DNA of 64,000 bases, taken from positions 1-64,000 of the forward strand of contig NZ_LPXN01000105.1 of NCBI RefSeq assembly GCF_001618175.1, given 5' to 3'. The DNA comes from Oceanibaculum pacificum (GTDB taxonomy: Bacteria > Pseudomonadota > Alphaproteobacteria > Oceanibaculales > Oceanibaculaceae). A program made the translations under genes and the position numbers. The first letter of the stretch is position 1. Each line of letters starts with the position of its first letter. The notes under the pieces are model-generated. The model was given only the letters and a program-made list of their open reading frames with translations, did not search any database and was not told where the DNA came from. Positions 53,535 to 64,000 of the stretch are shown piece by piece.

Positions 53535-54415
53535 TCCCATTCCAGCCCCAGCTTCTCGGCCAGGCGGGCGGCGTTGGCGGGGGCGCGGACCTTCACGTCA
53601 TTGTCGAAGTAAATGAAGACGTCATGGCCGGATTTGCGCGGTTTGCGCGCCGTCGTCACCCGTTCCGCGTCGCGCGGCTCCGAGCCCCGGGCCCAGCTGC
53701 CGGCCCGGCTGGCCCAGCGTTCCAGCGCTTCCTCGTCATAGCCGCTGACATACAGCTCCTTCGAGCCATGCAGCCGGCAATAGACGAAATCGGCGGTAAC
53801 ATCCATCAGCCGCGGCCAGTCCACCGTGTCGGCGCAGACCAGCGCCACCTTGTATCGGCGCAGCAGATCGATGAAGGCGGGGTCGCGGAAGCTCTCATGC
53901 CGGATTTCGACGGCGTGGCGCAGCGGCCGCGCGCCATCGGGGTCGAGCCAGGCGCGGCCCTGCATCCGCGCATCGTGCCGCCGGGCCAGCGCGGCCGCTT
54001 CGTCGGTGTCGTGCGGCAGCAGCGCCAGAAATGTCTCGAACAGATCGCGGTCGAACCGCAGGCTGGGCGGAAACTGCCACAGGATCGGCCCCAGTTTCGA
54101 ACCCAGCCGCAACAGGCCGGAGGCGAGGAAATTCGCCAGCGGCGTCTCGATCTCGCGCAGCCGCCTGGTGTGGGTGATGTAGCGTGACGCCTTCACCGCG
54201 AAGACGAACCCTTCCGGCGTCTCGTCGCGCCAGCGCGCGAAGCTGTCGGGCTTTTGCAGGCCGTAAAAGGTGCCGTTGATCTCGATGCTGGAAAACCGGC
54301 TCGCCGCATAGGCCAGCTCCCGCCGCTGCACCAGCCCCTTGGGATAGAAGCCGCCCCGCCAGGGCGGATAAGTCCAGCCGGATATGCCGATGCGGATGGT
54401 GGCGGTGGATGACAT
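53519..54415 (-). CDS. DUF72-family protein (YecE-like)
   Basis: A 298-residue TIM-barrel-like protein: IRIGISGWTYPPWRGGFYPK, SSIEINGTFYGLQKPDSFARW, FVFAVKASRYITHTRRL, LWQFPPSLRFD and DVFIYFDNDVKVRAPANAAR are all hallmark DUF72 blocks. Function unknown. It converges on greB with a 16-base overlap. Confidence 0.88.
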   Translation of the reverse strand: MSSTATIRIGISGWTYPPWRGGFYPKGLVQRRELAYAASRFSSIEINGTFYGLQKPDSFARWRDETPEGFVFAVKASRYITHTRRLREIETPLANFLASGLLRLGSKLGPILWQFPPSLRFDRDLFETFLALLPHDTDEAAALARRHDARMQGRAWLDPDGARPLRHAVEIRHESFRDPAFIDLLRRYKVALVCADTVDWPRLMDVTADFVYCRLHGSKELYVSGYDEEALERWASRAGSWARGSEPRDAERVTTARKPRKSGHDVFIYFDNDVKVRAPANAARLAEKLGLEWDHPAP

Positions 54416-54481
54416 GCGGTTCTCCTGAATGCAAAGGAAGAACCTGATGCCGCCACGCTGGTTCCACGCGACGGCGCGCTA

Positions 54482-54857
54482 TTGAAGCCGATGATTGCCT
54501 GGCCGCGGCGAAAGCCGGCCCATCGAGCTTATTTGGGGGGATTTGCTCTCCTCCAGGCCGCCCGCCCTGAAAGTCCGTCGGCGCTTCTTGAGCGCCATGA
54601 TGAACTTGAGGAAAAAGTCGGAACGGGAGTAGTCGGATTTGAGGTCAACGTGCCGCCGCAGGACGTCCCTCAATTCTCCACGAGATACTTTTTGGATTAT
54701 CAGAAGCGACGGCACTAAAAATCGACTTTTCGATAGGCCACTGCCTGAAAGCGAAATCATACGACTAACTGATTGGCTAGCTAGGGGAAACGAACTGGTC
54801 CTTGCTGAATATAGGCCACGCTGCAGAGCTTCCCGCTATCCACTGGCGGCAACGTAA
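54482..54857 (+). pseudogene. DUF3223-like gene remnant with a frameshift
   Basis: Two overlapping frames join into one recognisable block. The first (from ATG 54482) gives ALLERHDELEEKVGTGVVGF and ends FSTRYF; the second continues FWIIRSDGTKNRLFDRPLP and ESEIIRLTDWLARGNELVLA. Removing one T from the run TTTTT at 54690-54694 would give FSTRYFWIIRSDGTK, the pattern of DUF3223 domains. Either the gene is broken or the run has one extra base. The sequence is clearly more AT-rich than its surroundings, which hints at acquisition. The family call is from memory of the motif. Confidence 0.5.
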
Positions 54858-55008
54858 CCTCGACAAACTCGGGCCAGACCAGCGTTCCACCTTGGTCGAA
54901 TCGCTGCGATCTTCCCTTGAACGGCGAGCATAAAAATAGCCGCTCCTCAGCCTTGATGACCGAAAAGCGGTCGCGCTGATCGCTGAGAGACGGACGACAG
55001 CTATCCAA
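54781..55008 (-). CDS. Doubtful 75-residue reading frame
   Basis: A frame giving KAEERLFLCSPFKGRSQRFD and GTLVWPEFVEVTLPPVDSGK, which reads more like protein than the alternatives, overlapping the tail of the frameshifted remnant on the other strand. No known family. It may be another gene fragment. The rest of 54858-55229 holds nothing I can assign apart from the upstream region of the importer operon. Confidence 0.25.
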   Translation of the reverse strand: MDSCRPSLSDQRDRFSVIKAEERLFLCSPFKGRSQRFDQGGTLVWPEFVEVTLPPVDSGKLCSVAYIQQGPVRFP

Positions 55009-55229
55009 TCTGTGCGTCCGAGAGCGGCACGTCCGCTCACGGCCACTTCTTGTTAGAATGGATATTTATCAATATCTTAACCTTGAATCCGGCATGAGGA
55101 TAAGCTGCCCTCCGTTTTGCTTGTCTGCAGGATGCTCTCCCAAAAAAAAGAATGACAGCAGGACCGCCATACCTCTAAAGATCGACTAAAGGCGCCTCCA
55201 TAAGAAGGCGCTGTAATGGGAGAAAAAGC

Positions 55230-55985
55230 GTGGCGGATTACATTCTCCAGGCCGAGGGCCTGACCAAGCAATTCAGCGGATTCACAGCTGTTTCCAATGT
55301 GTCCCTGTCCCTGGAGCGGGGCACGATCCATGCCCTGATCGGGCCGAACGGTGCGGGCAAGACGACCTGTTTCAACCTGTTGACCAAGTTCTTGAAGCCC
55401 AGCGCCGGCGAGATTCGGCTGAACGGGCGGGACATCACCGGCCTGTCGCCGGATGCGGTGGCTCGGCTCGGCATGGTGCGCTCCTTCCAGATATCGGCGG
55501 TGTTCCCGCAGCTCACCGTGCTGGAAAATGTGCGGCTCGCCGTGCAGCGCCGACGCGGTGGCTCCTTCGACTTCTGGCGCAGCAAGGGCTTGCTGCGCGA
55601 TCTGGAGCCGCGTGCGATGGAACTGGTCGAGGCTGTCGGGCTGGGGGATGTGGCCGGCGTCACGGCTGAAGCGCTGTCCTATGGGCGCAAGCGCGCGCTG
55701 GAATTGGCAACCACCCTGGCGCTGGACCCGGAGATCATGCTGCTGGACGAGCCGATGGCCGGGATGGGGCATGAGGATATCGGGCGCATCACCGATTTGA
55801 TCCGTACCGCGGCGCAGGGGCGCACAGTGCTGCTGGTCGAGCATAATCTGAACGTGGTGGCTAATCTGTGCGACCGCATAACAGTGCTGATGCGGGGCGA
55901 AATCCTGGCTGAAGGCGACTACGCCACGGTGTCCAAGGATCCGCGCGTCATCGAGGCCTATATCGGGGGTGCCGGCCATGCATGA
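55230..55985 (+). CDS. livG: Branched-chain-type ABC importer ATPase (LivG)
   Basis: 251 residues: Walker A ALIGPNGAGKTTCFNLL, the LivG-type Q-loop GMVRSFQISAVFPQLTVLEN, a signature region that reads LSYGRKRALELATTLALDPE (the LSxGxxR variant of LivG), Walker B IMLLDEPMAGM and LLVEHNLNVV with the switch His. It powers import of an amino acid or amide-like ligand with LivF, LivH and LivM. GTG start with GGGAGA 6 bases upstream. First gene of the importer operon; livF starts within its last codons. Confidence 0.92.
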   Translation: MADYILQAEGLTKQFSGFTAVSNVSLSLERGTIHALIGPNGAGKTTCFNLLTKFLKPSAGEIRLNGRDITGLSPDAVARLGMVRSFQISAVFPQLTVLENVRLAVQRRRGGSFDFWRSKGLLRDLEPRAMELVEAVGLGDVAGVTAEALSYGRKRALELATTLALDPEIMLLDEPMAGMGHEDIGRITDLIRTAAQGRTVLLVEHNLNVVANLCDRITVLMRGEILAEGDYATVSKDPRVIEAYIGGAGHA

Positions 55986-56682
55986 AACCTTGCTCGAAAC
56001 CCGCAATCTGCAAGCCTGGTACGGCCAGAGCCATGTGCTGCACGGTGTGGACATCACGGTGCGCAGCGGCGAGGTGGTCACGTTGTTGGGTCGTAACGGT
56101 GCAGGCAAATCCACTACGCTGAAGTCGATCATGGGCATGGTCCCCAAGCGCTCCGGCTCGATCCGCTTCGAGGAGAGCGAGACTATCGACCTCGCGTCGC
56201 ACCGGATCGCCCGGCTGGGCATTGCCTATTGTCCGGAGGATCGCGGTATCTACGCCACGCTGAATGTGGAGGAGAACCTTCAGCTTCCGCCGGTGACCCG
56301 CCCCGGCGGCATGAGCGTGGAGGCAACGCTCGACTTGTTTCCTAATTTGCGCGAGCGGCTGAAAAGTCCGGGTATGAAGCTGTCCGGCGGCGAACAGCAG
56401 ATGCTGGCGATCGGCCGCGCCCTGATGAGCCGGCCGCGCCTGCTGCTGCTCGACGAGCCGACCGAGGGGCTGGCGCCCGTGGTCGTGCAGCAAATCGGCG
56501 GCATCATCCGGCGGCTGAAATCGGAAGGCTTCACCATTTTGATGGTGGAGCAGAATGCCCGTTTTGCCGCGACCGTCGCCGACCGGCATTACGTCATGGA
56601 GCGCGGCCGGATCGTCGACGCCCTGAACAATGCCGATATCGAGCAGAATTTTGACCGCGTGGTCGCGCTGCTAGGCGTCTGA
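55978..56682 (+). CDS. livF: Branched-chain-type ABC importer ATPase (LivF)
   Basis: 234 residues: Walker A TLLGRNGAGKSTTLKSIMG, the LivF-type IAYCPEDRGIYATLNVEENL, signature LSGGEQQMLAIGRALM, Walker B LLLLDEPTEGLAPVVV and MVEQNARFA. Full set of ATPase motifs. The ATG at 55978 overlaps livG by 8 bases; a GTG three codons earlier is also possible. Its end overlaps the convergent AraC gene by 12 bases, so the operon breaks here and livK restarts downstream of that gene. Confidence 0.92.
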   Translation: MHETLLETRNLQAWYGQSHVLHGVDITVRSGEVVTLLGRNGAGKSTTLKSIMGMVPKRSGSIRFEESETIDLASHRIARLGIAYCPEDRGIYATLNVEENLQLPPVTRPGGMSVEATLDLFPNLRERLKSPGMKLSGGEQQMLAIGRALMSRPRLLLLDEPTEGLAPVVVQQIGGIIRRLKSEGFTILMVEQNARFAATVADRHYVMERGRIVDALNNADIEQNFDRVVALLGV

Positions 56683-57531
56683 TTCGCGGTCCGATTGCCG
56701 GCGCGTGCGGAAATGCGATGGCCGGAACCCGGTCATCCGCTTGAAGGTGTTGGAAAAGGCGAAGGGGTTGTTGTAGCCGACCCCGAGCGCGATTTCCTCG
56801 ATCTTGGTCTGCGTCGTGGCGAGCTGGTGCGCGGCATGCTGGATGCGCAGATATGTCAGTTGCTGCATCGGGCTGCGCCCCAGGCTGGCCTGGCACAGGC
56901 GGCGCAGATGCTCGCCGCTGATATTGGCCAGACTGGCCAGGTCGCCGGCGGTCCACGGCCTGTCCAAATCCTGCTGCACGCTTTCCCACACTGACCGCAG
57001 CCGGTCCTCGCGCTGGAGCGGCTCCGCGAACCGGGTGATGTAATGCTCGATCAGGTCGATCCACAGCATGGCCGATCCTGAATCGGCCCGGGTCTCCACC
57101 TCGCGGTAAAGCCCTAGAATCGCGTGCCGCAACGGCTCTGCATCGAAGCGCGCCATCACCGGGGCGATGAATCCAATGGCCGAGCGCGGCGAACTCGGCA
57201 TGTAGCGCACCCAGCAATATTGCCAGCGCCGCGAGGGGATGGCGTGAAAGGCATGCAGCACATGGGCGGGTGCCAGCGATACCATGCCGGCGCGGTGCGG
57301 CCGCCAACGGCCGTCCAGCAGGATACGCCCCTCACCGCCCAAAGTAGCATGGACATAGGTACCGGTGAGACGGGTTCTAACGATGCGGTATGGAGGGGCG
57401 GCATCGCCGACCCCGACATGGGAAATCTGCCGGCTCGCCAAGGCGTTACAGTCCTGGGCGCGTACAATAAGCTGCCGTGTATCTTCTCCGACGATGTGTG
57501 TTTCAGATAGGTTCTTGTGCAAACCAGCCAT
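56671..57531 (-). CDS. AraC-family regulator of the importer cluster
   Basis: About 286 residues. The N-terminal two thirds is an AraC-type cupin ligand-binding domain (RIVRTRLTGTYVHATLGGEG, HRAGMVSLAPAHVLHAFHAI). The C-terminus has the two helix-turn-helix motifs (WTAGDLASLANISGEHLRRL and IEEIALGVGYNNPFAFSNTF, then KRMTGFRPSHFRTRR). ATG 57531 (MAGLHKN) is preferred; an upstream TTG adds 17 residues. It diverges from livK with 73 bases between, and converges on livF, so it most likely controls the transport genes in response to the imported compound. Confidence 0.88.
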   Translation of the reverse strand: MAGLHKNLSETHIVGEDTRQLIVRAQDCNALASRQISHVGVGDAAPPYRIVRTRLTGTYVHATLGGEGRILLDGRWRPHRAGMVSLAPAHVLHAFHAIPSRRWQYCWVRYMPSSPRSAIGFIAPVMARFDAEPLRHAILGLYREVETRADSGSAMLWIDLIEHYITRFAEPLQREDRLRSVWESVQQDLDRPWTAGDLASLANISGEHLRRLCQASLGRSPMQQLTYLRIQHAAHQLATTQTKIEEIALGVGYNNPFAFSNTFKRMTGFRPSHFRTRRQSDRESDA

Positions 57532-57604
57532 GGATCGCCGTTCTGTTCTGCCGGTAAAGTGGAAAGCAATAAATAAGAGCAAACGCTAACACTGGGAGAG
57601 AAAC

Positions 57605-58813
57605 ATGCGAAATAGTCTTCGATTGATGGCGGCTGCGTCCATGCTGGCATTTGGGGCCAGCGCGGCATCGGCCCAGATATCCAACGATGTGGTGCGTATC
57701 GGCGTTCTGGCGGATATGTCGGGCATCTATAGCGACCTGTCCGGCAAGGGCGCGGTCGAGGCGGTGAAGATGGCGGCCGAGGATTTCGGCGGCACCGTCC
57801 TGGGCAAGAAGATCGACGTGGTCTTCGCCGATCATCTGAACAAGGCGGATGTCGGCGCGGCCAAGGCGCGCGAATGGTTCGACACCGGCGGCGTGGACCT
57901 GATCAACGACCTCGCCAATTCCGGCGTGGCCCGTGCGGTTGCGGCGGTGGCCAAGGAGAAGAAGCGCCATATCGTCGTCAATGGCGCGTCCAACATGGGC
58001 ATCACCAACGAACTGTGCTCGCCCTATGCCATTCATTATGCCTACGACGCCTATTCGCTGGCGCACGGCACCGGCAAGGCAGTGGTGGAACAGGGCGGCA
58101 AGACCTGGTTCTTCCTGACCGTCGATTTTGCCTTCGGCATCGGCCAGGAGGAGCAGGTTTCCAAGGTGGTGCGCGCCAATGGCGGACGGGTGGCCGGTGC
58201 AGCGCGCCATCCTCTGGCGACCACGGACTTCTCCTCCTATGTGCTGCAGGCTCAGGCCTCGAAGGCGGAGATTATCGGCATTGCCTCAACCGGTGCCGAC
58301 GCGGTGAACGCGATCCGTGCGGCCGCCGAATTCGGCGCGACGAAGAACCAGAAGCTGGCCGCCCTGCTGCTCTGGATCGAGGATGTCCACGCCCTTGGCC
58401 TGCCGGCCGCGCAGGGGCTGTTGCTGACCAATGCCTGGTATTGGGACATGAATGACGAGACCCGCGCTTTCGCCAAGCGTTTCTTCGAGCGGGTCGGCAA
58501 GATGCCGAACATGGCGCAGGCAGCCGATTATTCCTCGACCATGTTCTATCTGAACGCGGTCAAAGCGGCCGGCACCGACGAGCCGGACGCGGTCTCCAAG
58601 AAGATGCGCGAGATGACGGTCAGCGACATGTTCACCAAGCAGGGCACGGTTCGCGCCGATGGCCGCTTCGTCCATGACATGTATCTTTGGCAGGTGAAGA
58701 CCCCGGCGGAATCGAAGGCGCCCTGGGATTATCTGAAGCTGGCGGCGACGATCCCGGCGGAACAGGCCTTCCAGCCGCTCTCCGATAGCAAATGCGAGTT
58801 GGTCAAGAAATGA
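57605..58813 (+). CDS. livK: ABC importer substrate-binding protein (LivK-like)
   Basis: 402 residues with a Sec signal peptide (LMAAASMLAFGASAASA, cleavage before QISND) and a type I periplasmic-binding fold: VVRIGVLADMSGIYSDLSGK, DFGGTVLGKKIDVVFADHLN, then the second lobe with ATTDFSSYVLQAQASKAEII. This subgroup includes receptors for amides and aromatic or other organic compounds, not only leucine. GGGAGAG precedes the ATG. It is separated from livH by two hairpins. Confidence 0.9.
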   Translation: MRNSLRLMAAASMLAFGASAASAQISNDVVRIGVLADMSGIYSDLSGKGAVEAVKMAAEDFGGTVLGKKIDVVFADHLNKADVGAAKAREWFDTGGVDLINDLANSGVARAVAAVAKEKKRHIVVNGASNMGITNELCSPYAIHYAYDAYSLAHGTGKAVVEQGGKTWFFLTVDFAFGIGQEEQVSKVVRANGGRVAGAARHPLATTDFSSYVLQAQASKAEIIGIASTGADAVNAIRAAAEFGATKNQKLAALLLWIEDVHALGLPAAQGLLLTNAWYWDMNDETRAFAKRFFERVGKMPNMAQAADYSSTMFYLNAVKAAGTDEPDAVSKKMREMTVSDMFTKQGTVRADGRFVHDMYLWQVKTPAESKAPWDYLKLAATIPAEQAFQPLSDSKCELVKK

Positions 58814-58824
58814 TCGGTGCGACA

Positions 58825-58900
58825 CCGGGCTGGCGTTACCTGCCAGCCCGGGACGTTTGCACGCTCGCCGAAGGCCGGCCTGCATCATGGCCGGCCTTCG
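58825..58900 (+). promoter_or_regulatory. Two tandem hairpins between livK and livH
   Basis: Hairpin 1: perfect 10-base stem CCGGGCTGGC / GCCAGCCCGG with a 7-base loop (58825-58851). Hairpin 2: perfect 12-base stem CGAAGGCCGGCC / GGCCGGCCTTCG with an 8-base loop (58869-58900). Neither has a T tail. They fit a processing or partial-termination element that keeps the binding-protein message more abundant than that of the permeases. Confidence 0.65.
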
Positions 58901-58940
58901 GGCGGGACGAATGGATCGTCGGACGGAGACCGACCGGCTA

Positions 58941-59828
58941 ATGGATATTTTTGGCATTCCGCACCAGGCCCTGCTGGGCCAGGTCATGCTCGGCCTCGTC
59001 AATGGCGCCTTCTATGCAGTGCTCAGCCTGGGGCTGGCGATTATCTTCGGCCTGCTGCGCATCGTGAATTTCGCTCACGGCGCCTTCTTCATGCTGGGCG
59101 CGTTCGTGGCCTTCCTGATCGGCCGCTATTTCGGCATCGGCTACTGGCCGGCGATGATAATGGGACCGCTGGTCGTCGGGCTGCTCGGCATTCTGTTCGA
59201 GCGTTTCGCTCTGCGCCGCTTGTACAAACTGGACCCGCTTTACGGCCTGTTCCTCACCTTCGGCCTGGTCCTGGTGCTGGAGGGCGGTTTCCGGGTGGCG
59301 ATGGGATCGTCCGGACATCCCTTTGCCACCCCCGATTCCCTGCGCGGCGTTGTCAATCTGGGCTTCATGGTTCTGCCGGTCTATCGCGCTTTCGTCATCC
59401 TGGTGGCGGTCGTGGTCTGCGCCGGCACCTGGATCATCATCGAAAAGACGCGGATGGGGGCGTATCTGCGCGCCGCCACCGAGCGGCCTGACCTGACCCA
59501 GGCCTTCGGCATCAATGTACCGATCCTACTGACGCTTACCTACGGTGCCGGCGTGGCGTTGGCCGGTTTCGCGGGCGTGCTGGCAGCCCCCATCCAGCAT
59601 GTGAACCCGTCCATGGGCTCCGACCTCGTCATCATCGTCTTCGCCATCGTCGTCATTGGCGGCTTGGGCTCCGTCCTTGGCTCGGCGCTGACCGGGCTTG
59701 GCCTCGGCGTGATAGAGGGGCTGGCAAAGGTCTATTACTCCGAGGCTTCTTCGACGGTCGTCTTCCTGGTGATGGCGCTGGTTCTGCTGCTGCGGCCATC
59801 CGGCCTGTTCGGGAGGGAGGAAAATTGA
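58941..59828 (+). CDS. livH: Branched-chain-type ABC importer permease (LivH)
   Basis: 295 residues, eight or so membrane helices. Family blocks seen: LGLVNGAFYAVLSLGLAIIF, LLRIVNFAHGAFFMLGAFVA, the EAA-like region ERPDLTQAFGINVPILLTLT and IVVIGGLGSVLGSALTGLGL. ATG 58941 (MDIFGIPHQ) is the start that leaves the usual N-terminus. The stop overlaps the livM start by 1 base. Confidence 0.92.
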   Translation: MDIFGIPHQALLGQVMLGLVNGAFYAVLSLGLAIIFGLLRIVNFAHGAFFMLGAFVAFLIGRYFGIGYWPAMIMGPLVVGLLGILFERFALRRLYKLDPLYGLFLTFGLVLVLEGGFRVAMGSSGHPFATPDSLRGVVNLGFMVLPVYRAFVILVAVVVCAGTWIIIEKTRMGAYLRAATERPDLTQAFGINVPILLTLTYGAGVALAGFAGVLAAPIQHVNPSMGSDLVIIVFAIVVIGGLGSVLGSALTGLGLGVIEGLAKVYYSEASSTVVFLVMALVLLLRPSGLFGREEN

Positions 59829-60808
59829 TGTTCTCCCCTGCCCTGAAACGGGGCCTTCTTGTCGTGCTGCTGGCCGCCTTGCTAATCGCGCCCCTCATGC
59901 CGCACCTCATCTATCCGATCTTCCTGATGAAGATGATGTGCTTCGCGCTGTTCGCCTGCGCGTTCAACCTGCTGCTCGGTCATGCCGGCATTGTGTCCTT
60001 TGGCCATGCCGCTTTCTTCGGCGGCTCGGCCTACATCACCGGCTACGCCTTGCGCGACATGGGATGGTCGACGGAACTGGCGATCCTGGCCGGCGCGCTG
60101 TTCGCCGCGATCCTGGGCATCGTCATCGGCGCGCTGGCCATTCGCCGCCAGGGCATCTATCTGGCGATGATCACCCTGGCGCTGGCGCAGATGGTCTATT
60201 TCACCTTTCTCCAGGCGCCCTTCACGGGTGCGGAGGACGGCATGCAGCCAATCCCGCGCGGCAGCCTGCTGGGGTTCATCGACCTGTCCAGCGACACCAG
60301 GCTCTACTATCTCGTGCTAGCCTGCGTGGCGGGCGGCCTGTGGCTGGTCAATCGCATCGTGAACTCCCCTTTCGGCGAGGTGCTGCGCGCCATTCGCGAG
60401 CATGAGCCCCGCGCCCGGTCCATGGGCTATGCCGTCGATCGCTACAAGATCGTCGCCTTCGCACTCTCGGCCGGCCTGTCGGGATTGGCCGGGTCGCTGA
60501 AATGCGTGGTCTTCCGGCTGGCATCGCTGACCGATGTGCATTGGCACATGTCCGGTGACGTCATTCTGATGACGCTGCTGGGCGGTATGAACTCCGTCTT
60601 CGGCCCGGCTATTGGCGCGGTTCTGATCTCCCTGCTGCGCCACTATTTCGACGCGCTGGGCGCGTGGGTCACGGTGGTGGTCGGCCTCATCTTCATGCTC
60701 TGTGTCCTGGTTTTTCGCCGCGGAATCCTGGGCGAAATCAATCATCTGCTGTCCCGGCGCCCTGCGGCCCCCCACCCCCTCAAGGAAGAACAGAATGCCC
60801 AGATTTGA
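59828..60808 (+). CDS. livM: Branched-chain-type ABC importer permease (LivM)
   Basis: 326 residues with about ten membrane helices: [40 protein letters not shown], the loop [20 protein letters not shown] and [20 protein letters not shown]. The end is a short cytoplasmic tail. The start is fixed by the TGATG junction with livH, and it overlaps the TIM-barrel gene by 14 bases, tying transport and the downstream enzymes into one transcript. Confidence 0.92.
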
Positions 60809-61646
60809 ACGCTCCGCCATCCTTGAACGCTTCCGGGACATGATCCGCCGCGGCGACCCCATCGTCGGCGGCGGGGCGGGCACGGGCATCTCGGCGAAAT
60901 GCGAGGAAGCCGGCGGCATCGACCTCATCATCGTCTATAATTCCGGGCGCTACCGCATGGCCGGGCGGGCGTCCTCGGCCGGGCTTCTGGCCTATGGCAA
61001 CGCCAACGATATCGTGCGCGAGATGGCGGTCGAAATATTGCCGGTCTGCAAGACCACGCCGGTGATCGCCGGGGTGAACGGCACCGACCCCTTCATCATC
61101 ATGCCGGTCTTCCTGAAGGAGCTGAAGGAGTTGGGCTTCTCTGGCGTACAGAACTTTCCGACCGTCGGCATCATCGACGGCACCTTCCGCGTCAGCCTGG
61201 AGGAAACCGGCATCAACTTCGCTAGCGAGATCGATATGATCCGCCAGGCTCATGAGCTGGACCTGCTGACCACGCCCTATGTCTTCTCCGCCGACGAGGC
61301 AGTGGAGATGGCGAAGGCGGGGGCTGACATCATCGTGCCGCATATGGGCGTGACGACCGGCGGCAGTATCGGCGCCACCACCTCGAAGACGCTGGAGCAG
61401 TCTGTGACGCTGATCGACGAATGGGCGGAAGCCGCGCGCAGTGTGCGCCGGGATGTCATCATCATCGCCCATGGCGGGCCGATCTCCTCGCCCGAGGATG
61501 TCGACTTCGTGCTGAGGAACAGCACGCATTGCAACGGATTCTATGGCGCCAGCAGCGTCGAGCGGCTGCCCGTCGAGACCGCTATCGTAAACCACATAAA
61601 AACCTTCAAGGGCTTGACCTCATTGAAGGAAAAGGGAGGAAACTGA
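60795..61646 (+). CDS. TIM-barrel protein, phosphoenolpyruvate hydrolase-like family (Tm-1 C-terminal type)
   Basis: 283 residues: [20 protein letters not shown] at the start, [79 protein letters not shown] and [18 protein letters not shown]. These blocks match the PEP-hydrolase/TIM-barrel signal-transduction-like family, whose biochemistry is unproven. The same family forms the C-terminal half of the plant protein Tm-1, while the N-terminal half is UPF0261, encoded two genes downstream here. Coupled to livM by a 14-base overlap and 2 bases before the SRPBCC gene. Confidence 0.83.
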
Positions 61647-61648
61647 AA

Positions 61649-62095
61649 ATGGCAGGGGTCTATATCAGCGCCGTGATGGATATTCCGCTCGAGGAGGCGT
61701 GGGGCGTGCTGCGCGACTTCAACGCGCTGCCGGTCTATCACCCCTTCTTCTCGAAGAGCGAGATCGAGGATGGCAAGCCCTCCGACCAGATCGGCTGCGT
61801 GCGCAATTTCTTCACCCATGAGGGCGGGCACATCCGCGAGGAGCTGTTGACCCTGTCCGACCGCGAGCATGTCTGCGCCTACCGCATCCTGGAGGCGACG
61901 CTGCCGGTGCAGAATTATGTGGCGGAGATGCGCCTGAAGCCGATCACCGAGGGCAACAAATGCTTCGGCGAATGGTGGGCCGAATATGATGTGGCGGAGG
62001 CCGATGCGGTCAGCGTCCATCAGACCGTCAGCGACACGTTCCGCTTCGCCTTCGAGGGGGCGGTGAAGGTCGCCAATTCCCGCCGCAAGGCATAA
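61649..62095 (+). CDS. SRPBCC (START/Bet v1-like) family protein
   Basis: A 148-residue helix-grip protein: AVMDIPLEEAWGVLRDFNAL, FSKSEIEDGKPSDQIGCVRN, EELLTLSDREHVCAYRILEA and GEWWAEYDVAEADAVSVHQT are the expected strands and final helix. The fold makes a hydrophobic pocket used in cyclases, hydrolases and ligand carriers. GGGAGGA precedes the ATG. It lies 2 bases after the TIM-barrel gene and 6 bases before the UPF0261 gene, inside the operon, so it probably binds or transforms the imported compound. Confidence 0.83.
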   Translation: MAGVYISAVMDIPLEEAWGVLRDFNALPVYHPFFSKSEIEDGKPSDQIGCVRNFFTHEGGHIREELLTLSDREHVCAYRILEATLPVQNYVAEMRLKPITEGNKCFGEWWAEYDVAEADAVSVHQTVSDTFRFAFEGAVKVANSRRKA

Positions 62096-62101
62096 CCCGC
62101 C

Positions 62102-63316
62102 ATGGCAGCTACCGGCACGGCCCCTGGCACGGCTTATGTCGTCGGCACCTTCGATACCAAGGCGGAGGAGCTGCTCTATGTCGCCGGGCTGCTGCGTGCG
62201 GCCGGGCTTTGGGTGGTCACAATCGATGTCGGCACGAAGACCGCTTCGGCTGAGGCCGATATCAGTGCGCAGGCTGTCGCCGCCTGCCATCCCGAAGGGG
62301 CCGATGCCGTGTTCGCGGCGGGCGACCGGGGGGCGGCCGTCACCGCGATGACGGAAGCGCTGCTGGGCCTTGTCGCCACGCGGCGGGATATCGGCGGCAT
62401 GATCGGCCTGGGCGGTTCCGGCGGTACCTCGATCATCGCACCTACCCTGCGGGCGCTGCCCATCGGCGTGCCGAAGCTGATGGTCTCCACCCTGGCCGCC
62501 GGCGATGTCGGCCCGTTCGTCGGGGTGCATGACATCGCCATGATGTATCCGGTCACCGACATTGCCGGGCTGAACCGGCTGTCGCGGGTGATCCTGGCAA
62601 ACGCCGCTCACGCGCTTGCCGGCATGATGACGCGGCCGGTGCCGCAACCGGCGGACAGCCGCCCGGCGCTGGGCTTCAGCATGTTCGGCGTCACCACCGC
62701 CTGCATCCAGCAGCTGACCGCGCGCCTGTCTGGCGATTATGAATGCCAGGTGTTCCACGCCAACGGCCCCGGCGGTCGGGCGCTGGAGGCCATCGCCGGT
62801 TCCGGCATGCTGCAGGGCATGGTCGATATCACCACGACCGAGGCAGCGGATCATCTGCTGGGCGGCGTCTGCACGGCGGGGCCGGAGCGATTCGACATTG
62901 TTGCCCGCACCGGCATTCCCTGGGTCGGCTCCTGCGGGGCGCTGGACATGGTGAATTTCTGGGCGCCGGAGACCATCCCGGAGCGCTATCGTGGCCGGCT
63001 GTTCCACGCCCATAACGCCAATGTCACGCTGATGCGCACCAATGCCGGGGAGCTGGAGCAAATCGCAGCCTGGATCTGCGGCAAGCTGAATGCTTCGTCC
63101 GGCCCGGTCAGGCTGCTGCTGCCGGAAGGTGGCGTCTCAGCCCTCGACGCGCCTGGGCAGAAATTCCACGATACCGACGCCGATGCCGCGCTGTTCGCGG
63201 CGTTCGAGCGGCATTTCGTGGCCAGCGCGGACCACCTTCTGGTCCGCGTGCCGCACCACATCAACGATCCGGGTTTCGTCGAGGCGGCGGAACGGCATGT
63301 GCGCGAGCTGATGTGA
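62102..63316 (+). CDS. UPF0261 (Tm-1-like ATP-binding) protein
   Basis: 404 residues. The family start AYVVGTFDTKAEELLYVAGL is clear, followed by DVGTKTASAEADI, IGLGGSGGTSIIAPTLRALP with the nucleotide-binding glycines, PKLMVSTLAAGDVGPFVGVH, DIAMMYPVTDIAGLNRLSRV and the C-terminal LLLPEGGVSALDAPGQKFHD. The N-terminal half of plant Tm-1 is the same family and binds ATP. Bacterial function is unknown. It is the last gene of the importer operon; no hairpin follows closely. Confidence 0.88.
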   Translation: MAATGTAPGTAYVVGTFDTKAEELLYVAGLLRAAGLWVVTIDVGTKTASAEADISAQAVAACHPEGADAVFAAGDRGAAVTAMTEALLGLVATRRDIGGMIGLGGSGGTSIIAPTLRALPIGVPKLMVSTLAAGDVGPFVGVHDIAMMYPVTDIAGLNRLSRVILANAAHALAGMMTRPVPQPADSRPALGFSMFGVTTACIQQLTARLSGDYECQVFHANGPGGRALEAIAGSGMLQGMVDITTTEAADHLLGGVCTAGPERFDIVARTGIPWVGSCGALDMVNFWAPETIPERYRGRLFHAHNANVTLMRTNAGELEQIAAWICGKLNASSGPVRLLLPEGGVSALDAPGQKFHDTDADAALFAAFERHFVASADHLLVRVPHHINDPGFVEAAERHVRELM

Positions 63317-63642
63317 TATCCGGCGGTACCGTGAAATCATGACCTGAGTCCCGACTTGCCTCCAGATTTTGGCAGAGTTCGTCATTGCGCGGAGCCCGGA
63401 CGAACCCAAGCGTCTGCCAAGGTGCTCAAGGAGTATCGTGGCAATCATACTATATGGCGGCTATTACACGGGGGCGCCCCAAACCGGACAACCCGCTCCC
63501 GGCCCCCAAGATGCTGTCAGGGTGAGCTGAAAAGCGGGAGAGTTTTGCGCAAGCCGGAGATTACTATGACAGACACCCGGATGCTCCCAGCCAGTACGGC
63601 AGGCGAACCGTCTCAGGCTGTCCTGCCGCACTGGCCTTTGGT
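63317..63642. other. Gene-free stretch
   Basis: 326 bases between the UPF0261 gene and the SDR gene, which converge. One frame gives MTDTRMLPASTAGEPSQAVL before a stop, but I see no ribosome site or family and do not call it. No convincing terminator for either neighbour. Confidence 0.4.
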
Positions 63643-64000
63643 TCAGATTGCCTGACCGCCCGAAACCTCAATGCGCTGTGCGGTGACCCAGCGGTTGCTG
63701 TCGGAAAGCAGGCTCGCGACCATCGGACCGATGTCGTCAGGCAGGCCAACACGACCGAGTGCGGTCAGCCCGGCGAACTGGGCATTCAGATCGGGGTTGT
63801 CGCGCACGACGCCCCCACCGAAATCGGTCTCGATGGCGCCGGGAGCAACGGTGTTCACCGCAATGCCGCGTGGACCAAGCTCTTTCGCCATATAGCGGGT
63901 CAGCGTTTCAACCGCGCCCTTCGCCGCGGCATAGGCAGAGAAGCCGGAATAGGTAAAACGGGTCAGGCCCGTTGAGAAATTCACGATGCGTCCGCCATCA
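63643..64000 (-). CDS. SDR-family oxidoreductase, partial (window edge)
   Basis: The C-terminal about 119 residues of a short-chain dehydrogenase; the rest lies beyond 64000. Seen are DGGRIVNFSTG (the Ser strand), SAYAAAKGAVETLTRY with the catalytic Tyr and Lys, NTVAPGAIETDFGG and the C-terminal SNRWVTAQRIEVSGGQAI. FabG-like; substrate unknown. No truncation is visible within the window. Confidence 0.87.
   Translation of the reverse strand, partial: DGGRIVNFSTGLTRFTYSGFSAYAAAKGAVETLTRYMAKELGPRGIAVNTVAPGAIETDFGGGVVRDNPDLNAQFAGLTALGRVGLPDDIGPMVASLLSDSNRWVTAQRIEVSGGQAI

Follow-up and report, generated by a model that had tools for sequence, protein, structure and literature searches.

An ABC importer locus of Oceanibaculum pacificum that combines separate Tm-1-type genes with an SRPBCC protein: a candidate uptake and catabolic module

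In tomato, a fusion of the protein family UPF0261 with a TIM barrel (PF09370) confers Tm-1 virus resistance, and we know of no original job for this pair of families. Here, we describe a bacterial locus in which both families are encoded next to an importer. It lies at positions 55230 to 63316 of the first 64,000 nucleotides of contig NZ_LPXN01000105.1 (assembly GCF_001618175.1) of the alphaproteobacterium Oceanibaculum pacificum, a stretch that we refer to as the window. A Pfam profile search places all nine genes described for the locus in their families above the cut-offs. The plus strand starts with a livG-type ATP-binding cassette (ABC) ATPase (55230-55985; ABC_tran 4.6e-29, BCA_ABC_TP_C 1.1e-8) and a livF-type ABC ATPase (55969-56682; ABC_tran 5.2e-30), which is not fused in the window, and they are followed on the minus strand by an AraC-family regulator (56671-57582; HTH_18 1.8e-20, AraC_binding 7.4e-9). 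The remaining genes, again on the plus strand, encode a livK-type periplasmic binding protein (57605-58813; Peripla_BP_6 2.1e-103), livH-type (58941-59828; BPD_transp_2 1.2e-34) and livM-type (59825-60808; BPD_transp_2 1.7e-36) permeases, a 'PEP hydrolase-like' TIM barrel that is an enzyme candidate (60795-61646; PEP_hydrolase 1e-124), an SRPBCC protein with a hydrophobic pocket (Polyketide_cyc2; 61649-62095; PF10604 3.9e-19) and a UPF0261 or Tm-1 N-terminal family protein, a predicted small-molecule kinase (62102-63316; PF06792 1.5e-59, PF23189 2.2e-80). The two ATPases, two BPD_transp_2 permeases and one Peripla_BP_6 protein form a complete importer of the HAAT (branched-chain/urea) type, and none of the five subunits reaches the curated cut-offs for Liv or Urt.

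The nine genes and the overlap and gap lengths given in a first-pass annotation of this DNA agree with the Pfam matches and with the refined starts, which for livH (58941), the barrel (60795) and the SRPBCC gene (61649) were chosen to fit the overlaps. livH and livM overlap by 4 bases and livM and the barrel gene by 14, with gaps of 2 bases between the barrel and SRPBCC genes and 6 bases between the SRPBCC and UPF0261 genes. The tight spacing of the previously proposed operon therefore stands from livH on, but a single operon running from livG to UPF0261 is ruled out, as the AraC gene lies antisense between the two halves of the importer, converging on livF with a 12-base overlap and diverging from livK with 22 bases between. 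This arrangement requires at least two transcripts, one for livGF and one for livKHM with the three enzyme genes. In addition, livK and livH are 127 bases apart and the interval holds two strong GC-rich hairpins (58811-58945, plus strand; fold of -81 kcal/mol, z -6.63), a folding energy that none of 200 shuffles reached. Hairpins of this kind often raise expression of a binding protein over that of its permeases. No family reached its gathering score in an Rfam scan of positions 54400-64000.

How widespread is this combination of genes? The locus was compared with a barrel set made up of 80 nearest relatives, eight plasmid regions, 31 sampled loci and seven further regions (L129-L135), in which domains were counted as profile matches on stop-to-stop reading frames. 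The nearest relatives are the best 80 of 406 loci confirmed by scan, ranked by similarity to the window barrel, many of them on short contigs. The sampled loci are all places above 400 bits, outside the window, in 397 evenly drawn Pseudomonadota genomes; they fall in 30 genomes, and two genera supply over half of them. Lower-scoring PF09370 places were excluded from the sampled count, and two of these (L134 and L135) form the outgroup. With two regions that have no barrel (L093 and L097) set aside and L129, the same contig as L010, counted once, the set holds 124 distinct full-barrel loci, window included. UPF0261 adjoins the barrel in 118 of these (74/80 nearest, 31/31 sampled), and all 31 PF09370-containing genomes of the 397-genome sample also carry PF06792. 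Passages of Yang et al (PMC5028733) report UPF0261 in 491 of 504 genomes with PF09370, and already describe separate, co-evolving genes for the two.

The barrel, UPF0261 and SRPBCC genes are a conserved module with a frequent link to liv genes: all three occur together in 64 of the 124 distinct loci, and liv permeases are also present in 44 of these 64. Around the barrel, SRPBCC genes are found at 45/80 nearest and 14/31 sampled loci, liv permeases at 36/80 and 12/31, and both at 31/80 and 12/31, an association of SRPBCC with liv that gives Fisher p-values of 1e-6 and 6e-7 (the latter for the sampled loci) in tests that ignore kinship. The linkage of the trio, internally and to liv genes, that the first-pass annotation had proposed is therefore not a rarity among relatives. 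Two of its details hold in part. An SRPBCC gene between the separated Tm-1 halves is a feature of the window and its type, where the order barrel-SRPBCC-UPF0261 is found (15 of 124 distinct loci, window included), but not a general rule, as other loci have the order UPF0261-barrel-(flotillin)-SRPBCC or lack SRPBCC. Likewise, the liv transporter is frequent but is one of several importer kinds, since other barrel copies are accompanied by sugar-type ABC or BMP importers, or by none in reach. This variety of importers marks the enzymes as a movable module.

On a tree of the barrel, the window groups with support 99 among 21 rows, 20 of them distinct, whose record titles name Alpha-, Beta- and Gammaproteobacteria; every row has liv permeases, SRPBCC or both. 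All 16 window-type rows have a livK match and an AraC match opposite in strand to the enzymes. The window's enzyme order recurs in 14 other distinct loci from the same three classes, which argues against a chance arrangement, and the window-type unit seems to move between proteobacterial classes. One could still propose that a liv operon simply came to lie beside unrelated genes, and the same genome indeed holds a second liv cluster (L141, contig 2, 9289-13109) whose LivK is 53% identical and which lacks adjoining genes for the three enzymes, as judged from the reading frames of its neighbors. However, such an accident is extremely improbable and already contradicted by the neighborhood counts, given the same order in 15 distinct loci of three proteobacterial classes and the Fisher p of 6e-7 for the pairing of SRPBCC and liv among sampled loci, a value inflated by relatedness. 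A LivK paralog of the L141 type is also present in a genome of the same genus without PF06792 and PF09370. Three window-type loci (L015, L017 and L020) encode AraC, LivK and the three enzymes, with no livH or livM in reach; their binding protein may serve permeases encoded elsewhere.

The first-pass annotation understated the link to the importer, which in relatives of the window is physical. In 24 of the 124 distinct barrel loci, a LivF-type ATPase and a C-terminal UPF0261 are encoded in a single open frame that spans 742 to 1008 codons between stops; 72 to 110 residues separate the domains, and Walker A, signature and Walker B patterns occur in all 24. An in-frame start codon is present within the last 30 codons before UPF0261 in 14 of the fused frames, so that a second, separate product is possible there, and is absent in the other 10. 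A deposited Variovorax coding sequence (CDS) of 750 amino acids, annotated 'ABC transporter permease', contains ABC_tran, UPF0261 and UPF0261_C above Pfam cut-offs, and a Yoonia record has a single CDS under the fusion match. On the UPF0261 tree the fused state takes two changes, against 22 in shuffles. The fusion is a new observation of this work: a search limited to open-access literature found no account of it, nor of the UPF0261, barrel and SRPBCC trio.

Fusion is accompanied by flotillin: downstream of the barrel, 23 of the 24 fused loci have a flotillin gene, whereas the 100 unfused loci have none, and in the one fused locus without it (L074) the 3.8 kb contig stops at the barrel. Both flotillin genes tested match PF15975 and Band_7. 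A gene for the large subunit of a molybdenum hydroxylase is found in 16 of the 24 fused loci; in L063, the one locus tested, two genes encode this subunit, which among solved structures is nearest to nicotinate dehydrogenase. Other fused loci have FAH, amidohydrolase and alpha/beta hydrolase genes and an SRPBCC-reductase fusion. Two high-scoring UPF0261 places without barrel were read after the main count, over 15 kb each: L159 (1955-11767) and L160 (3370-12851) both carry LivF-UPF0261, liv genes, flotillin and two SRPBCC genes, with the barrel missing from the 15 kb. What the fused machine always contains would thus be liv, UPF0261, flotillin and SRPBCC, with the barrel usual rather than universal, and the earlier proposal that the Tm-1 pair is the enzyme does not hold everywhere, as these two loci manage without a barrel. 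Could UPF0261 and flotillin instead regulate or scaffold the importer, as an ATP- or ligand-sensing domain carried on LivF, without any catabolic step? The strict tie between fusion and flotillin, also in the two barrel-less loci, would fit such a role. Nonetheless, we regard it as quite unlikely, because no liv permease lies within 9 kb of the barrel at 44/80 nearest and 19/31 sampled loci (some on short contigs), and because enteric copies share only a TetR-type gene as neighbor.

What might the UPF0261 protein do? PF06792 and PF23189 span its chain and a Tm-1 fold is predicted, which places it in the UPF0261 / Tm-1 family. An AlphaFold2 model built from 58 family sequences reached a predicted local distance difference test score (pLDDT) of 93, compared with 36 for a single-sequence model. 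In a structure search it matches tomato Tm-1 (Z 46-48, 41% identity) and PDB entry 9MPY (Z 35, root-mean-square deviation 7.0), whose title names Saro_1862, a UPF0261 domain protein of Novosphingobium aromaticivorans, with acetovanillone bound. The structure prediction suggested in the first-pass annotation thus connects the protein to both, and the statement made there that no reaction is assigned is dated for the wider family, given a UPF0261 protein crystallized with acetovanillone. Tm-1 retains 60 of the 61 near-invariant UPF0261 positions and 9MPY 43, and 42 are common to both. A likeness to UDP-GlcNAc epimerase (Z about 11, first domain only) was taken as common Rossmann-like resemblance.

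Excerpts of PMC13101465, published in 2026, describe the catabolism of hydroxyphenylethanones, including acetovanillone, as starting with a kinase, which in Novosphingobium is the single-component MarK. Organism, ligand and date suggest that MarK is Saro_1862, the protein of 9MPY, and by homology the UPF0261 protein of the window may be an ATP-dependent kinase. An aromatic setting is also seen at some UPF0261 loci without a barrel, of which 16 of 22 places scoring 134 to 186 bits were read. These include an aldehyde dehydrogenase match at 14, TctA at nine, an HpaF-type isomerase at five and an HpaD dioxygenase at four. Five of them (L145, L146, L147, L148 and L152) combine TctA and aldehyde dehydrogenases with the homoprotocatechuate-type isomerase, and four of these five also with the dioxygenase. 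Two HpaD proteins tested pass NCBIfam cut-offs, and the HpaF-type protein tested passes Pfam CHMI and falls below its NCBIfam cut-off.

We propose, with a probability of a little under one half (about 0.47), that the locus encodes a substrate-specific HAAT importer together with a three-protein catabolic module, in which import is followed by UPF0261-dependent phosphorylation of an aromatic-type substrate and by its further conversion. LivK would capture an organic compound, most likely aromatic or another hydroxyl-bearing hydrophobic one, which LivHMGF would import and UPF0261, close to the membrane face, would phosphorylate with ATP. The PF09370 barrel, where present, would then cleave or rearrange the phosphorylated compound, and the SRPBCC protein may hold, hand over or cyclise an intermediate of low solubility. 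Control of the genes probably falls to AraC. Within this proposal the link between importer and module is well supported, kinase activity and an aromatic substrate class are moderately supported, and the barrel reaction follows only by logic, which the barrel-less L159 and L160 weaken. The idea of import coupled to catabolism in the first-pass annotation gains strength from the LivF-UPF0261 fusions and the aromatic setting of some relatives.

Several observations weigh against this proposal. The window UPF0261 is only 32% identical to 9MPY, 18 of its family's 61 near-invariant positions differ in that structure, and the equation of MarK with 9MPY is one that we infer. Twelve of the 16 barrel-less UPF0261 loci have no HpaD, and the Pfam search found no ring-cleavage or carboxylase gene among the nine window genes, so that any product would depend on pathways encoded elsewhere. 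The co-variation of SRPBCC with liv is not significant on independent pairs of the UPF0261 tree (eight supported pairs, median p 0.6), and sugar-type ABC permeases lie near 12 of the 31 sampled barrels. Fused loci without a barrel mean that the barrel is no fixed second step, which lowered our confidence. Finally, a split dikinase (PPDK_N and PEP-utilizers genes) adjoins UPF0261 at two loci (L138 and L153), where a second kinase would be superfluous if UPF0261 catalyzed the same phosphorylation at every locus.

The last of these points, together with the residue differences in 9MPY, would also suit a UPF0261 protein that is another ATP-dependent enzyme or a binding partner, with the other module proteins doing the chemistry on the imported compound; plant Tm-1, according to passages of PMC5028733, binds viral replication proteins. 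We consider this unlikely, as 9MPY binds acetovanillone, whose described bacterial catabolism opens with phosphorylation in passages of PMC13101465, and as 42 of the 61 core residues are common to the family, Tm-1 and 9MPY. At L138 (11643-17878), on a plasmid of Thermomicrobium roseum, the two dikinase parts are single genes, PPDK_N and PEP-utilizers, that lie by liv-UPF0261-barrel genes together with a cyclase gene (PF04199) and one annotated as FAH. HpeHI has a likewise two-part make-up in the abstract of PMC12167813, and the likeness of the L138 and L153 dikinase to it is one of make-up.

Is the substrate necessarily aromatic? The module could catabolize a sugar-acid or polyol-like compound, with liv importing a polar hydroxy acid, and the sugar-type ABC permeases near sampled barrels (and near 10 of the 80 nearest) are consistent with this, as are Gfo/Idh, cupin, xylose-isomerase-like and 'four-carbon acid sugar kinase' neighbors. 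However, the 12 sampled loci with sugar-type ABC permeases all lack SRPBCC, liv is the importer linked to the window clade, and the molybdenum hydroxylase, FAH and ring-cleavage neighbors of relatives suit aromatics better, which makes a sugar-type substrate for the window improbable.

The fusions may also hint at a closer coupling, in which the cytosolic motor of an ABC importer carries a Tm-1-family kinase, the substrate is phosphorylated on leaving the channel and thereby trapped, and flotillin acts as a membrane scaffold. Such a machine would be an ATP-driven analog of group translocation by the phosphotransferase system, would pass its product to SRPBCC and, where present, the barrel, and would exist in the window in unfused form. 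We consider this bolder version doubtful; if true, coupled uptake and phosphorylation would put an ABC importer to an unexpected use.

The barrel itself matches PF09370 model positions 2-266 of 267 and is close to the solved protein Mll9387 (2p10, E 2.3e-119). A partial match to nitronate monooxygenase (9.9e-8) is the sole hint on whether it is of a PEP/pyruvate-type or phosphate-binding kind. An alignment of the barrel family holds 67 rows. A diverged form of the domain shares a frame with a sigma-54 activator at 19 of 127 loci (confirmed by Pfam on one). Of 61 near-invariant enzyme positions, 35 are kept in at least 80% and 19 lost in at least 70% of these copies. Positions Y49, H184, H227 and E257 are among those lost in all 19, and D44, R55, N72, E81, N121, E146 and S254 among those kept in all 19 (numbers follow the 60792-61646 translation, one above those from the Met at 60795). 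This pattern suggests that the fused barrel is an enzyme domain retained as a ligand sensor, which in those loci appears to sense the same ligand, and that the polar residues lost are candidate catalytic residues of the enzyme form. In many loci, L022, L027, L032, L038 and L094 among them, the sigma-54 sensor gene is accompanied by another PF09370-like gene that is shorter and more degenerate.

Among known systems, plant Tm-1 and Tm-1-like proteins (3WRW, 3WRX, 3WRY) share the UPF0261 fold and the partner barrel family with the window. In the plant protein the two are fused, the barrel forming the C-terminal half, whereas the window, bacterial and presumably catabolic, has separate genes (60795-61646 and 62102-63316) with SRPBCC between them and an importer. 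According to passages of PMC5028733, the two families are found in bacteria, archaea and fungi, and almost every sequenced land plant has the fusion. Compared with Saro_1862, also a UPF0261 protein, the window adds a barrel partner, an SRPBCC protein and a liv importer. The Hpe/Acv hydroxyphenylethanone pathway of Rhodococcus GD02 and Sphingobium SYK-6 follows a similar idea, an aromatic activated by phosphorylation before C-C chemistry, but its HpeHI is an ATP-grasp/swivel dikinase and not a UPF0261 protein (abstract of PMC12167813). Membership of the window in that pathway was rejected, as the required three-part carboxylase and phosphatase are absent among the nine genes. With HAAT (liv/urt) importers the window has all five subunits in common, and it differs in the catabolic genes that follow livM in the same direction and in the LivF-UPF0261 fusion of some relatives. 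Mll9387 (2P10) belongs to the same PF09370 'PEP hydrolase-like' family; our literature search found no reaction assigned to 2P10 and no paper naming Mll9387. The locus thus suggests a new combination of known families whose function is sharply testable, and the original job of the UPF0261 and barrel pair can now be tested through its link to importers, the fusion with LivF and the sensor form of the barrel.

The remaining proteins add some detail. The nearest solved sequences of LivK are 3i09 (E 1.7e-138) and 3n0w (E 1.5e-92); neither these nor the LivK paralog in the plain liv cluster of the same genome, with neighbors judged from reading frames, gave a clue to the ligand. The window SRPBCC protein matches PF10604 over the domain, and the Pfam search gave no CoxG (PF06240) match at E 0.001. 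In a 37-row SRPBCC alignment W19, F25, R53, E65, D72, Y79 and W110 are invariant (numbering of the 61646 frame). On a Roseomonas marmotae plasmid (L093, 2763-9444), an SRPBCC gene of the same family follows a liv importer together with SDR and MBL-fold genes, with no UPF0261 or barrel annotated within the 18 kb shown. SRPBCC is doubled in one chain of about 305 amino acids at L032 (10844-11761, with two PF10604 stretches) and about ten other loci, and in L067 and L136 it is fused to a zinc-type dehydrogenase domain.

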